A stretch of 64,000 nt of DNA from assembly GCA_025998675.1 (NCBI GenBank), contig AP024673.1:1515221-1579220 (forward strand). The letters run 5' to 3'. The notes under the pieces are model-generated. The model ran no database searches, was not told the origin of the DNA, and saw only the letters and a program-made list of their open reading frames with translations. A program made the position numbers and the translations under genes. Positions 1,000 through 63,709 of this stretch are shown in pieces. The DNA comes from Fimbriimonadales bacterium (GTDB lineage Bacteria > Armatimonadota > Fimbriimonadia > Fimbriimonadales > GBS-DC). Positions within the stretch are counted from its first letter, which is position 1. Each line of letters begins with the position of its first letter.

Positions 1000-1884
1000 A
1001 TGGAAGCGAACATTTTCACGAATGTTGTGCTGCCTCTTGCGCTGGCGGTGATTATGCTGGGCTTGGGGCTGACCCTGACGCGCGACGACTTCCTGCGCGT
1101 GGTGATTTTCCCGAAGGCGTTCGTGATTGGACTGACCTGCCAGATGGCGCTGCTGCCGCTGGCGGGGTTTGTGATTGCCAAGTTATTCCCGATGGAGCCG
1201 CAGCTGGCGGTCGGGGTGATGATTCTCGCGCTCTGCCCCGCGGGCGCGACGGCGAACCTGATTACCTACCTCGCGCGGGGCGATGTCGCGCTGGGGATTA
1301 CGCTCACGGCGTTCAACAGCCTGATTATTATCATCACGACACCCATCCTGATTAACCTGTCGCTGGGACACTTTCTGGGCGAAAGTCAGGAGATTCGGCT
1401 ACCCGTGCTGCGCACGATTATTCAGGTGGGCGCGATTATCCTGATTCCGGTCTCAATTGGCATGTTCATCCGGGCGCGCAAGCCCCAGTTCGCGGCGGCG
1501 GCGGAGCGTCCCGTGCGTATCCTCTCAACGCTGTTCATCGCGATTGCGGTGCTGGGCGCGGTGCTGCAGGATGTGGAGAACCTGCCCTCGCACTTTCGAC
1601 AGGCGGGCGTCTCGATGCTCGCGTTGAATGTGCTGACGCTCTGGATGGGCTACAATGTGGCGCGCCTGTTCCGATTGCCGCTCAAGCAGGCGATTGCGAT
1701 TTCGATTGAGGGCGGCATCCAGAACGGCACGCTCGCGATTCTGATTGCCAGCACGATTCTGAAGCAGCCCGCGATGTCCATCCCTGCGGCGGTCTACAGC
1801 CTGATTATGTTCGCGACGGGCGCGTTTATGATTTACTACTTCGGGCGTCGCGCGCGTGAGGCTGCCCCAGAGATGGCGTCTTAG
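1000..1884 (+). CDS. Bile acid:sodium symporter (BASS) family transporter
   Basis: The 294-residue protein is almost entirely hydrophobic with about nine or ten predicted membrane helices. It has the BASS-family glycine/proline-rich segment around residues 60-90 (LALCPAGATANLITYLARGD), where the family binds sodium and the substrate crosses. Members move organic anions with sodium into the cytoplasm; the substrate here is unknown. Its TAG stop (1882-1884) lies inside the left end of a dispersed repeat that starts at 1880, so the repeat probably supplied the present 3' end. No functional partner is adjacent. Confidence 0.88.
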   Translation: MEANIFTNVVLPLALAVIMLGLGLTLTRDDFLRVVIFPKAFVIGLTCQMALLPLAGFVIAKLFPMEPQLAVGVMILALCPAGATANLITYLARGDVALGITLTAFNSLIIIITTPILINLSLGHFLGESQEIRLPVLRTIIQVGAIILIPVSIGMFIRARKPQFAAAAERPVRILSTLFIAIAVLGAVLQDVENLPSHFRQAGVSMLALNVLTLWMGYNVARLFRLPLKQAIAISIEGGIQNGTLAILIASTILKQPAMSIPAAVYSLIMFATGAFMIYYFGRRAREAAPEMAS

Positions 1885-2043
1885 GTGTCGTTGCAGAAAG
1901 TGTTCAGCAATCGCTCTATCTGCGCATGCGCGTAATTTGGAGTGCTGAAGCGGGAGCTTCAGCATGCGCGGAAGCTCCGCTTCCGCACTCCATACAAACG
2001 GCGATTCGTGCGCAGAATGCAAATATAGCGCAAAGACACTTAG
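1880..2043. repeat. Double-hairpin dispersed repeat, copy 1
   Basis: This MITE/REP-like element is about 164 bp. The core at 1938-1992 has an outer stem TGGAGTGC/GCACTCCA enclosing two perfect hairpins, GCTGAAGC-GGGA-GCTTCAGC and GCGGAAGC-TCC-GCTTCCGC. The ends are imperfect inverted repeats (TTAGGTGTCGTTGC and, reversed, CTAAGTGTCTTTGC), and CTTAG occurs as a direct repeat at 1880-1884 and 2039-2043. The left end gives the stop of the BASS gene and the right end the stop of the converging VOC gene. Confidence 0.88.
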
Positions 2044-3979: not shown

Positions 3980-5161
3980 ATGCAGAAGAGGTTCATCGAA
4001 ATCAACGGAGTCCAGTATCCGTGGCTGGGCGAAGTCTTTTTCCCAGAGACCCGCGCCGACATCGTGCTGGATGACGGTAGACGCGTGGTCTTTGTAGAGA
4101 ACGAAACGCTCTTCGTCGATCGGCTGGATCCCAGCTTCTGGGGGGAGCAGTGGGGCGACATCTATCAGAAGCTGGACGCATGCCCGTTTGAGGTGCGCCT
4201 GCTGGGTGAGTTTATCCCCGAAAAAGTGGAGCGCTTCGGGCGCAAGTTCCCCGGAATCACCTACGGTCAGGTGGGCAGGCGCGAGTACCCGCCCAAAGGC
4301 ACGCGCGTCTCGATTCGCAACGGCGTCGTGAACCTGCGCCTGCCCGACGGCGCACGCGCCAGAGGCGTCGCCTACCTGCAGGTACGCAACCTCCGACGCA
4401 CGGGGATAGATATCTACCAGTCGCCCCCAGAGAAGCGGTACATCGCCGAGGGAACACACAACGACCTGTTGCGCAGTCGGTTATTGCCCGGCGATTTGAT
4501 ACTCGTTAATAGCGGCATCGGTTCACTGGGACGATGCGCCGTCGTGCCTGAAGGTATTGGGACGGTGAATATCAGTCAGCACATCGACCGAATCGTACTG
4601 AACGGTATCTGCCCTGAGTGGACTGCTATGTTCCTGCAGAGCGGTTTCGGAGCATGTCAAATGTCGCGATGGTTTTCTGGGGTGTCGGGGCAGATTAAGA
4701 TAGACTTCAAAGAAGTTCGCGTCCTGCGCATTCCCGTACCTGACGAAGCAATCCAGCAGGCAGTGGCGCGTGAATACTGGCGGATGGCGGCGTACCATGC
4801 GCAGGCGATGCAGGCGCGCGCGCTGGGCGACGACCCCCGCGCCGAAGGCATCCTGCAGATTGCTACAGGCATGCTGGAGACCCTGCTGGCGCAGGTGGAG
4901 TCGCTCATTACAGGCGAGCATCGCGCCATCACGCCCTTGATCCCCGATAATCCGCCGCCCAAGCTGAAGCGGTTCTTGGAGGATGAGTATCGCCGCATCG
5001 GGCAAATCTATGAAGAGATAGAAGAATACACGCAGCGGGGACGCGACGAAGCCGATTTGTTGGGGATTCCCCTGAGGCGCGACGCGGAGATTGTGGATCT
5101 GGCGGCGCGCGTGTTGCAACTGGTGGAGAGCCTCACGGACGATGGCAGTCCGACGCAGTAA
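3980..5161 (+). CDS. hsdS: Type I restriction-modification specificity (HsdS)-like protein
   Basis: This 393-residue protein has features of a single target-recognition domain (~residues 120-270): VAYLQVRNLRRTGID, LLPGDLILVNSGIGSLGRCAVVPEG, NISQHIDRI and a C-terminal VRVLRIPVPDEAIQQAV that leads into a long helix, as in HsdS conserved regions. A further helical C-terminal part (~270-393) could dimerise or contact the methylases. Half-sized S subunits with one TRD normally act as dimers. The N-terminal ~115 residues do not match a domain I know. It overlaps the next gene by 20 bases, so the two are translationally coupled. Confidence 0.75.
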   Translation: MQKRFIEINGVQYPWLGEVFFPETRADIVLDDGRRVVFVENETLFVDRLDPSFWGEQWGDIYQKLDACPFEVRLLGEFIPEKVERFGRKFPGITYGQVGRREYPPKGTRVSIRNGVVNLRLPDGARARGVAYLQVRNLRRTGIDIYQSPPEKRYIAEGTHNDLLRSRLLPGDLILVNSGIGSLGRCAVVPEGIGTVNISQHIDRIVLNGICPEWTAMFLQSGFGACQMSRWFSGVSGQIKIDFKEVRVLRIPVPDEAIQQAVAREYWRMAAYHAQAMQARALGDDPRAEGILQIATGMLETLLAQVESLITGEHRAITPLIPDNPPPKLKRFLEDEYRRIGQIYEEIEEYTQRGRDEADLLGIPLRRDAEIVDLAARVLQLVESLTDDGSPTQ

Positions 5162-6550: not shown

Positions 6551-7402
6551 ATGGCAAAATCCTCCCGTTCGAAGGCGCTGGCGCAGTTCTGGACGCCGCC
6601 CGCTGTGGCGGAGTTCATGCTGGAGATTGTGCAGTTCGACCCGCTCTGGAAGGTGATTGACCCCGCATGCGGCGAGGGCGTCTTTTTGCAGAAGGCGGCG
6701 GAGCGAGGCGCAGGCGCGCTGGCAGGCGTGGATATCGACCCCAACGCCCTCGAACGCGCCAAGCAGGCGCTCCACCCTTACGGCGAGCGCGTGCGACTCT
6801 ACTGTCAGGATGGACTGCAGCCCATCGACGACCCCAACCCCTTCTGGCGCGGCGAATACGACCTCGTGATAGGCAATCCTCCCTTCGCCGCCACAGGCTA
6901 CCGCATCCACGACCCACGAATCCTGCAACGGTTCGAACTGTCCAGTGAACCTATCGATGAGCCGACCGACGAGCCAGACGAGCAGGGGCAACTGTTCGAG
7001 TATCGCGAGCCGCGCCGGCGCCGCAAGTCCGCCGTCGCCATCGAGATTCTCTACCTGGAGCGGTTCTCGCAGCTGTGTCGGCATGGGGGGCGCATCTGCA
7101 TTATCCTGCCCGATGGCGTGCTGGCAAACCGAAACACCCGCTATGTGCGCCAGTGGATTTTGCAGCATCACCATGTGTACGCCGTGATTAGCCTGCCCCG
7201 CAACACCTTCAAAGGCGTCGAGACGAGCGCGAAGACCTCGATTCTGGTGCTGCAGAAGGGGCGTTTCTACGAGAAGCGCGGCGCGCACATGATGATTCTC
7301 GAACAGGTGAACCCCGACGCGCCGTTTGATCGGGAGAGCAACCCCGAGCTGGTGAGCGCGGCATCGGCGTTGCGCAAATGGTTGCAGTTCGCGCCCTGTT
7401 AA
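6551..7402 (+). CDS. N-6 adenine DNA methylase (second subunit/paralog)
   Basis: This 283-residue class I SAM-dependent methyltransferase has motif I (IDPACGEGVFLQKA), an acidic SAM contact VDIDPNAL, the adenine-specific motif IV IGNPPF, and the HsdM-type segment GGRICIILPDGVLANR. It is short for HsdM (~500 aa) and lacks the helical N-terminal domain, which the preceding gene may supply. It begins 5 bases after that gene, so the three genes form one operon. The TAA stop (7400-7402) lies in the left end of repeat copy 2, suggesting the gene's tail was set by that insertion. It resembles an orphan or split methylation system more than a full restriction system. Confidence 0.83.
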   Translation: MAKSSRSKALAQFWTPPAVAEFMLEIVQFDPLWKVIDPACGEGVFLQKAAERGAGALAGVDIDPNALERAKQALHPYGERVRLYCQDGLQPIDDPNPFWRGEYDLVIGNPPFAATGYRIHDPRILQRFELSSEPIDEPTDEPDEQGQLFEYREPRRRRKSAVAIEILYLERFSQLCRHGGRICIILPDGVLANRNTRYVRQWILQHHHVYAVISLPRNTFKGVETSAKTSILVLQKGRFYEKRGAHMMILEQVNPDAPFDRESNPELVSAASALRKWLQFAPC

Positions 7403-7560
7403 GCACCGTCGTAATGGGGGTTCTGCGACTCCTCTGTTCGCGCGTGCGCTCAATTTGGAGTGCTGAAGCAGGAGCTTCAGCGTTCGCGGAAGCTCCGCTT
7501 CCGCACTCCATACAGATGGCGCTCTGCGCATATGTCGCAACTCGAACGCAAGCGCACTGG
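7399..7560. repeat. Double-hairpin dispersed repeat, copy 2
   Basis: Core 7456-7510 has the same outer TGGAGTGC/GCACTCCA stem and two hairpins as copy 1 (loop AGGA in the first). The left end TTAAGCACC supplies the methylase stop codon; the right end, AACGCAAGCGCACT, matches the family end in inverted form. It separates the methylation operon from the DinG gene, whose -10 box starts 21 bases further on. Confidence 0.85.
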
Positions 7561-9700: not shown

Positions 9701-9722
9701 GGAAAAACGCCCGCACATGGGG

Positions 9723-9728
9723 TATACT
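9723..9728 (+). promoter_or_regulatory. -10 box of the transposase-fold/sigma-4 gene
   Basis: TATACT in GGGTATACT. It lies downstream of the earliest in-frame start at 9717, so the used start is the ATG at 9759, which has GGAGGG about 8 bases before it. Confidence 0.6.
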
Positions 9729-9758
9729 TCTTTTACCGCCGCGAAACGGAGGGCGTGC

Positions 9759-10487
9759 ATGGCGAAGAAACCATCCGAGGGGTCGCAGCAGCGCAAGGCG
9801 AGGTCGCCCTTTGAGAAACTGCGCACGACGGGGTCCAGCGCTTACCGTCTCTACGCGCTGATTGCGTTCTACGCACGCGCGAAAAAGCCCCTCTTCGACG
9901 AGGAGGTGACCGCGCTCTTCGCCCAATCGCTGCCCGAAGTGTGCCAGAGCTACGAATACGAACTCATCGCCTATCGCGTGATGGCGAATCAGGTGCATTT
10001 GCTGCTGGGCGTCAAGCCAACCGACGCGATTGCCGATGTGGTCAGCAACATCAAACGCAGCACGGCGCATCGGCTGTTTGAGGGCATCGCGCGCCTGGAG
10101 CAGGAAATCGGCAAGCGCAACTTCTGGGCGGAAGGCTACTTCGCCGAAACGCTCGGACACGCCCAGATCGAACACACCCTCAAGGTCTGGCAACACCGCT
10201 CCAGAGATGAAGAGACCATGCTGATGCAGATTGTGTACGACCTTGCACAGCCCCTGCATCCAAAACAGATTGAGCGCGCGATGGATGCGCTGATGCCTGC
10301 CGAGCGCGTGGTCATGCGCCTGCTGTACGGATTGCAGGGCGAGCAGGTTCACACGCTGGAGCAGGCGGCGGACAAACTGGGGCTGAAACCCGACGAAGTG
10401 CAGCAGATGGCGCAGGAGTCGATTGCGAAAATCCGCGCCCTGTTGCGCGAGCGACGCATGGAACGCGCCGCAGGGAGGTCCGCATGA
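9759..10487 (+). CDS. Degenerate IS200/REP-type (Y1) transposase fold fused to sigma-70 region 4
   Basis: Residues ~25-150 follow the TnpA_REP/IS200 pattern: YELIAYRVMANQVHLLL (family ...VMPNHVHLLL), VVSNIKRSTAHRLF, then NFWAEGYFAETLG. The HUH motif is reduced to Q78-V-H80, and the helix expected to carry the catalytic tyrosine reads IEHTLKVWQ with no Tyr, so DNA cleavage is unlikely. Residues ~174-232 match sigma-70 region 4 (LMPAERVVMRLLYGLQGE, TLEQAADKLGLKPDEVQQMAQ, IAKIRALL), the helix-turn-helix that reads -35 boxes; regions 2 and 3 are absent. The 242-aa protein is thus probably a domesticated DNA-binding regulator. It overlaps the HIT gene by 4 bases. Confidence 0.72.
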   Translation: MAKKPSEGSQQRKARSPFEKLRTTGSSAYRLYALIAFYARAKKPLFDEEVTALFAQSLPEVCQSYEYELIAYRVMANQVHLLLGVKPTDAIADVVSNIKRSTAHRLFEGIARLEQEIGKRNFWAEGYFAETLGHAQIEHTLKVWQHRSRDEETMLMQIVYDLAQPLHPKQIERAMDALMPAERVVMRLLYGLQGEQVHTLEQAADKLGLKPDEVQQMAQESIAKIRALLRERRMERAAGRSA

Positions 10488-18384: not shown

Positions 18385-18562
18385 TATACCAATCCGTGAG
18401 TCAGGGTTCGCTAAGTGCCTCACACGCGCCTGCAGAGGCGTGCTGTTGCCTGCGCCCCGCTCCTATGGAGTGCTGAAGCACAGCTTCAGCATGCGCGGAA
18501 GCTCCGCTTCCGCACTCCATAAACCGACGTTTAACGAACCATTACCTGCGGATTGGTATTAG
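18385..18562. repeat. Double-hairpin dispersed repeat, copy 3 (long form)
   Basis: The inverted ends are ATACCAATCCG and CGGATTGGTAT, and the element ends in TATTAG. The double-hairpin core is at 18466-18519, with ACA/CAGC variation in the first loop. The left arm (TGCCTCACACG...CTGCAGAGGCG) is shared with copy 5. Confidence 0.85.
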
Positions 18563-33022: not shown

Positions 33023-33064
33023 GGGTTCACCTCGTATGATAAGTGTGGTTGCGTGGGGTTTTCA

Positions 33065-33187
33065 AGAATCTGGTTGTCCGCGCGTGCATTCGGGCGCGTT
33101 TTTTTACGGAGTGCGGAAGCTCCCGCTTCAGCACTCCATACACACGGCGCTTCGCACCCGTGCGGCGAGTGTCGTACAAAGGCGCTT
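33065..33187. repeat. Double-hairpin repeat, copy 4, internally deleted
   Basis: At 33106-33138 the two hairpins have collapsed into one (GGAGTGCGGAAGCTCC joined to CGCTTCAGCACTCC), a likely deletion between the GAAGCTCC halves. The right end ACAAAGGCGCTT fits the family; the left boundary is uncertain. Confidence 0.6.
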
Positions 33188-33188
33188 C

Positions 33189-33368
33189 TACCAATCGGCT
33201 GTTCAGACCTCATATTTGCCTCACGCACACCTGCAGAGGCGCACTGTTGCCCGCGCCGTGCTACTTTGGAGTGCTGAAGCGGGAGCTTCAGCATGCGCGG
33301 AAGCTCCGCTTCCGCACGCACTCCATAAATTGCCGTCCTGCGAACTCTGACCTGCGGATGGGTATTAG
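33189..33368. repeat. Double-hairpin repeat, copy 5 (long form)
   Basis: Left end TACCAATCGG, right end CGGATGGGTATTAG, core 33267-33325 with a 4-base duplication (GCACGCACTCC). It starts one base after copy 4 ends. Confidence 0.82.
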
Positions 33369-51949: not shown

Positions 51950-52106
51950 TAAGTGCCTTTGCGTGAGAATTGCGACATGCGTGCTGCGCCGTCTTTATGG
52001 AGTGCGGAAGCGGAGCTTCCGCGCAGGCTGAAGCTCCCGCTTCAGCACTCCAAATTACGCACATGCGCAGACAGGGAGCCGCTGAAAATTTACTGCAAAG
52101 GCACTC
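51949..52106. repeat. Double-hairpin dispersed repeat, copy 6 (reverse orientation)
   Basis: The ends CTAAGTGCCTTTGC and TACTGCAAAGGCACTC are inverted. The core at 51998-52052 is reversed relative to copies 1-3. The right end lies 11 bases before the ATG of the next gene, so the element may contribute to or displace its promoter. Confidence 0.85.
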
Positions 52107-52116
52107 AGATAGTCTT

Positions 52117-57003: not shown

Positions 57004-57163
57004 GATATCAATCTGCTGGTCATAGTTCGCAAAGCGGCGATTAATGGAGTGCGGAAGCGGAGCTTCCGCGACGCTGAAGCTCCCGCTTCAGCACTCCAAA
57101 GAACCTGCCTGTGCGCGTGCACGGGTAGAGGGACTGCTGAAAAATTACTGCAACGACACTTAA
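57004..57163. repeat. Double-hairpin dispersed repeat, copy 7 (hybrid ends)
   Basis: The left end TCAATCTGCTGGTCATAGTT is of the long-form type (as at 63485), while the right end, TTACTGCAACGACACTTAA, is of the short-form type (as copy 1). Core at 57045-57098, reverse orientation. The right end supplies the stop of the PLP enzyme gene. Confidence 0.82.
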
Positions 57164-63480: not shown

Positions 63481-63709
63481 ATACCAATCTGCTGGTCATA
63501 GTTCGCAAAACGGCGACGCTTGTAGCCCTCACCCCCTTTGTCCCCCTCTCCCAACGGGTTGGGAGAGGGGGATAGCGCATCGCGCGCCGCTCGCACGGCT
63601 CCCCTCTCCCGCCGCGCGGGAGAGGGGCTGGGGGTGAGGGCAACAGGGCGCGTGGCTCTGGCTGGAGACGCACGGTAATTACGAAATCTGACGCGCGGAT
63701 TGGTATTAG
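63481..63709. repeat. Long-form dispersed repeat ends enclosing the GC-rich hairpin repeat (copy 8)
   Basis: Left end ATACCAATCTGC, right end GCGGATTGGTATTAG. Instead of the double-hairpin core it holds two CCCTCACCCC/CCCCTCTCCC hairpin units (63527-63575 and 63600-63641). Confidence 0.75.

Follow-up and report, generated by a model that had tools for sequence, protein, structure and literature searches.

The intergenic repeats in the 64,000-nucleotide stretch analysed here (the window; C1:1515221-1579220 of genome G000) probably belong to two stacked mobile systems, a RAYT-REPIN system on the inside and, around it, MITEs with terminal inverted repeats (TIRs) that captured a REPIN. An earlier note on this DNA had described one MITE/REP-like family, in which the two systems were merged into one. 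Its REP/BIME and RAYT reading stands for the 55-bp core, given a REP-flanked RAYT gene and the shared presence of gene and core, but does not extend to the whole 164-bp interval (1880-2043), which exceeds the REPIN: conservation continues past the core, which sits in a TIR element that we call A. Its MITE reading, in turn, fits the separate outer shells, with their TIRs, target duplications and empty site, but not the core. All the further copies it listed (at least six) exist and contain the core, mostly as the double hairpin it described, although only one 32-bp palindrome is present at 33107-33138 and the copy at 33267-33325 has four extra bases (Table 1).

Table 1. Composite elements, shells and REPIN cores in the window (positions of the window).
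Feature	Position	Strand	Details
A-type composite (TIR shell with REPIN inside)	1882-2042	+	TIRs; empty site in G008, G004, G010
CTTAG direct repeat of the 1882-2042 element	1880-1884 and 2039-2043		
REPIN core	1938-1992	+	REP-T (TGGAGT+GCTGAAGC/GCTTCAGC) and inverted REP-G
A-type composite	7400-7560	+	Left TIR degenerate; core 7456-7510
B-type composite	18385-18560	+	TIR TACCAATC; TTA at both ends; core 18466-18519
A-type shell	33040-33188	-	Degenerate TIRs; single 32-bp REP palindrome 33107-33138
B-type composite	33189-33367	+	Core 33267-33325; right outer arm has 4 additional bases
A-type composite	51950-52107	-	Core 51998-52052
Mixed element	57004-57162	-	One B arm and one A arm; core 57045-57098
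B-type shell without REPIN	63482-63705	-	Other palindromic payload GCCCTCACCCCC...GGGGGTGAGGGC; TTA at both ends

The core repeat

Searching the whole genome with the half-site pattern TGGAGTGCKGAAGC (at most one mismatch) gave 147 forward and 142 reverse matches, 289 in all, against 1 + 2 = 3 for the reversed pattern used as a control; the 2.99-Mb single-contig genome holds ~145 copies of the core, lying in both orientations as the earlier note had it. The core is laid out as TGGAGTGC-hairpin-hairpin-GCACTCCA and consists of two inverted REPs with their heads outward, each half being TGGAGT followed by an 8-bp stem that begins with GC (GCTGAAGC/GCTTCAGC in REP-T, GCGGAAGC/GCTTCCGC in REP-G). 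REPs are palindromes of 20-50 nt with a conserved tetranucleotide at the 5' foot and a high intergenic copy number, a description that fits the GGAG-headed 8-bp stems found here; the canonical tetranucleotide GT[AG]G, however, is replaced by GGAG in every REP examined.

Among 124 paired cores taken from the window and ~100 further regions, which make up part of the loci listed by the pattern, 107 are doublets of 43-56 bp and 17 are short single-palindrome forms. Stems are near-invariant within G000 and loops vary (GGGA, GTCA, GCA, GGTA and others); one stem pair is compensated between the two core halves (T-A versus G-C). Neither of the outcomes named beforehand as counter-evidence, a scarcity of copies elsewhere and uncompensated stem mutations, was found. 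The predicted minimum-free-energy fold is a single long hairpin (-39.4 as RNA, -24.8 as DNA), which is 9-11 kcal/mol more stable than the three-way form (-28.2 and -15.5), and the three-way junction was rejected as the working fold since it is not the minimum-energy structure in RNA or DNA. Because outward-headed inverted REPs and a long-hairpin fold match the definition of the REPIN set for Pseudomonas, an inverted REP doublet able to form a long hairpin (PMC3116915), we regard the core as a REPIN.

The repeats had been said to occur only between genes, which is true of ~95% of them; a rough gene call predicts ORFs that overlap 6 of the 124 cores, even though ~90% of the DNA is coding. No Rfam family matched the window. 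REPs lie within long predicted ORFs, possibly in-frame, at L063:701-745, L078:701-807 and L090:701-753, again by rough gene calls. At L016:734-2239, and also at L046, L068, L081 and L200, REPIN cores are interrupted by an IS701/IS4-like element whose ends read TGATGTTTGTCATTTC; REPs are already known as IS targets (PMC1525189).

A REP-flanked RAYT gene

A Y1-type transposase gene lies at C1:1509173-1509907, ~5.3 kb upstream of the window. Its product matches NCBIfam NF047646 (REP_Tyr_transpos) with 99.9 bits (cut-off 80), Pfam Y1_Tnp and PDB 4er8 (TnpA-REP), and carries the motifs HYH, a version of HuH, and YVNNNP. REP cores stand on both sides of the gene. G008 has an orthologue with 63% identity and the same neighbour genes, with a tandem array of four REP-T lying 5' of it and another of four REP-G lying 3'; since the REPs flank the RAYT as REP-T 5' and REP-G 3', the REPIN equals the two flanks minus the gene. 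RAYT and core both occur in G000 and G008 and neither occurs in 11 congeners, a correlation comprising two positive genomes and draft assemblies (the genomes with G numbers are mostly drafts). G016 is the exception, with no RAYT detected and yet a few cores, in shells. A REP-associated Y1 gene with inverted cognate REPs at both flanks, whose presence correlates with REP abundance, is characteristic of RAYT systems, and the REP-flanked gene together with the shared presence supports, at the level of sequence, a RAYT-REPIN reading of the core. We infer the action of the RAYT on these REPs and its cleavage chemistry; among the loci compared, no bare REPIN was matched by an exact empty site.

The GGAG head in other genera

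In the family or order, the RAYTs of G015, G026, G041, G050 and G057 are flanked by inverted hairpins with the head GGAGT (once GGAGC), found by scanning for stems alone, with the head not used as a criterion. The stems of these REPs are unlike those of G000. Across 18 REPs from 8 genomes the GGAG head is invariant and the stems covary between species, 107 of 108 variable-stem cells being paired, compared with 61 on average when partners were shuffled; the search for 8-bp stems partly builds in the pairing but not the shared head. As a MAFFT alignment misplaces loop gaps, pairing was scored by counting positions inward from the two ends. A general GGAG-REP pattern, markedly enriched in several genomes with a RAYT, matched 132 times in G000, 100 in G008, 84 in G037, 36 in G041 and 23 in G052, and 0-15 times in most genomes lacking a close RAYT and also in several with one; in G016, where no RAYT was found, there were 22 matches against 9 in the control, and counts were barely above the control in G026, G050, G057, G058, G060 and G015. 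No close RAYT was found in G043, though it has palindromic GGAGT REPs like those of G026, possibly relics left after loss of the RAYT.

Published RAYT guides are GT[AG]G (PMC6006769, PMC2817692) and, in class 3, CnGA, and no GGAG guide was found in the RAYT literature examined. Judged by its sequence, GGAG is a variant of the published GT[AG]G guide.

Outer shells and their target sites

Conservation beyond the 55 bp extends for ~50-80 bp on each side of the core in two kinds of arm, A and B, that carry TIRs; most copies have A or B arms, the composite units measure 160-178 bp, and mixed A/B elements exist (for example window 57004-57162). A shells end in AGTGYCKTTGC beside TA in the context Y-TA-R, and B shells in TACCAATC beside a duplicated TTA, TAA or TCA (TNA). 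Like TIR MITEs, the shells combine TIRs with a target duplication (for A, CTTAG around 1885-2038) and are seen as occupied and empty sites. At 1880-2043 the flanking genes are joined without the element in G008, G004 and G010: the joined flanks align gaplessly to those of G008 and G004, in which a single CTTAG (in G004, CTTAA) corresponds to the two of G000, and in G010 the left gene is matched up to the same point. Furthermore, the B unit L060 is absent in G008, as are other A units from the matching intergenic regions of that genome. A RAYT/IS200-type enzyme is not known to produce TIRs, duplicated target sites or an exact empty site, and we treat the MITE layer as separate from the REPIN. 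The 1880-2043 element fits exactly into the gap between two convergent genes, both of which have their stop codon in the duplicated CTTAG.

A bare REPIN (L052:5092) is common to G000 and the orthologous place in G008, with different loops and without shells. The REPINs of G008 form tandem arrays, often between the arms of another palindrome, and none lies in an A or B shell in the fetched loci. TIR patterns rise above background only in G000, G008 and G016. Since the last of these, a genome of another genus in which no RAYT was found, holds an A composite with a REPIN that is 96% identical to G000 copies, the shells appear to carry REPINs, and this resemblance points to a recent transfer of the composite.

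An IS630 transposase was ruled out as parent of the A and B shells by the absence of IS630-type transposases (PF13358) from G000, G008 and G016. The DDE search, which covered this type, yielded no autonomous parent of either shell, and no TIR pair 1-2 kb apart was found except shells interrupted by another IS. We also dropped the difference in identity between core (0.95) and arms (0.67-0.79) as a sign of independent core renewal, because core-based retrieval inflates it.

The shells enclose other payloads as well. B termini surround a two-hairpin payload, GCCCTCACCCCC, in the window (63482-63705) and at many loci, and a GGTTCCCCCTGC payload; among the payloads between A termini are GTAG-type palindromes (L191), and one of the A shells, L197, is payload-free. 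The shells are vehicles and not parts of the REPIN. The GCCCTCACCCCC...GGGGGTGAGGGC palindrome is an abundant second two-hairpin repeat of B shells (window 63482-63705, L052, L040, L042, L203, L205 and L206), occurs four in tandem at L204, and has similar palindromes in G008 that enclose REPINs. The GTAG-headed palindromes within A-type TIRs at L191 (about 275-440; TGTAGGGGCAACC...) are another REP-like family. L054 holds two copies, ~2.1 kb apart (2440-2950 and 4530-5040), of a segment that combines a short REP and CCCTCACCCC repeats with a B end.

Mechanism and competing explanations

In the two-system reading, a single-copy, syntenic HUH (Y1) RAYT most likely recognises the GGAGT head and hairpin of the REP in single-stranded DNA, and would rarely copy REP doublets (REPINs) into new places. 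Two short TIR families, A (TA within Y-TA-R) and B (TNA duplications), would have captured a REPIN, and their shells would spread it by cut-and-paste in units of 160-178 bp, presumably through a DDE transposase acting in trans; the identity of that enzyme and its present-day absence are likewise presumed. Both layers are of known kinds, and it is the recognition tag and the nesting that are unusual.

It is unlikely that the RAYT moves everything and that the shells are pre-existing palindromes into whose centres REPINs were repeatedly inserted. Such a scheme would account for the fact that REPINs sit centrally in A, in B and, in G008, in the CCCTCACCCC palindrome, which are inverted repeats of three kinds, has a parallel in the REP dimers inside palindromes of Anabaena variabilis and others (PMC3733652), and accommodates the one core-less A shell. 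However, all A copies have one junction in common and all B copies another, which fits a single capture followed by spread; shell and core are absent together at 1880-2043 in three species; and composites are present in the RAYT-less G016.

Very unlikely, too, is that the repeats, their mobility being ancient, are kept by a host role such as bidirectional transcription stop, mRNA end protection or a nucleoid protein site, functions reported for REPs in enterics: they are found in only 2 of the 13 species of the genus, at polymorphic positions, and the genes beside 109 placed copies show no marked preference of orientation (58 co-directional, 27 convergent, 24 divergent), even if the hairpins are strong and mostly intergenic. 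That the whole 160-178-bp element is one MITE with the two-hairpin core as its interior and an incidental RAYT link is highly improbable, for although A or B arms are present on most copies and empty sites are seen for whole units, one core is common to two shells with unrelated TIRs, bare cores are shared with G008, where shell-free tandem arrays also occur, and in two species the core flanks the RAYT gene on either side, with related RAYTs having GGAGT REPs of their own.

The reading with two stacked systems bears on the growth of REPIN populations and on their passage from one lineage to another. RAYTs are thought to be domesticated, rare copiers of REPINs; here their carriage seems to fall to a second transposition system, and composites with clear empty sites make it testable. 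We found no description in the literature of REPINs hitch-hiking in MITE shells. Tentatively, and with somewhat less than even confidence, we suggest that Armatimonadota hold a distinct GGAG-guide RAYT lineage whose REPINs spread mainly by capture in DDE-type MITE shells, also into RAYT-less genomes. A GGAG-guide lineage would be a natural test of the guide-to-cleavage-site model, established for GTAG (PMC8266576).

Relation to known systems

The closest features are those of the REPIN/RAYT system of Pseudomonas fluorescens (PMC3116915, PMC2817692), which shares the inverted REP doublets, high copy number, mostly intergenic location and long-hairpin fold, as well as a single-copy, syntenic RAYT flanked by inverted cognate REPs; the head here is GGAGT rather than GT[AG]G, the host belongs to Armatimonadota, and most copies lie in TIR shells. 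GTAG-15 REP dimers of Anabaena variabilis (PMC3733652, section 7) similarly lie in the middle of a longer, conserved inverted repeat whose ends are of TA type, but REP-free palindromes were not found there, whereas the shells described here have other payloads or, in one case, none, and show target duplication together with an empty site. Bacterial TIR MITEs such as RUP and Correia/NEMIS resemble the shells in being 70-300 bp long and non-coding, with TIRs and a short target duplication, and differ in that the interior here is a RAYT-type REPIN and the parent transposase was not found. By motif alone (the HYH version of HuH and Y---NP), the RAYT falls into TnpA-REP subclass 2.8 (PMC6006769), which is described with GT[AG]G REPs, in contrast to GGAG here.

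A second Y1-like gene, at 9717-10487 in the window, was ruled out as the mobiliser: its HuH reads QVH, its C-terminus is sigma-70-like, each of the six family genomes searched has its Y1_Tnp match too, and no REPs flank it. With its changed HuH and a C-terminus like sigma-70 region 4, the protein may be a domesticated regulator.
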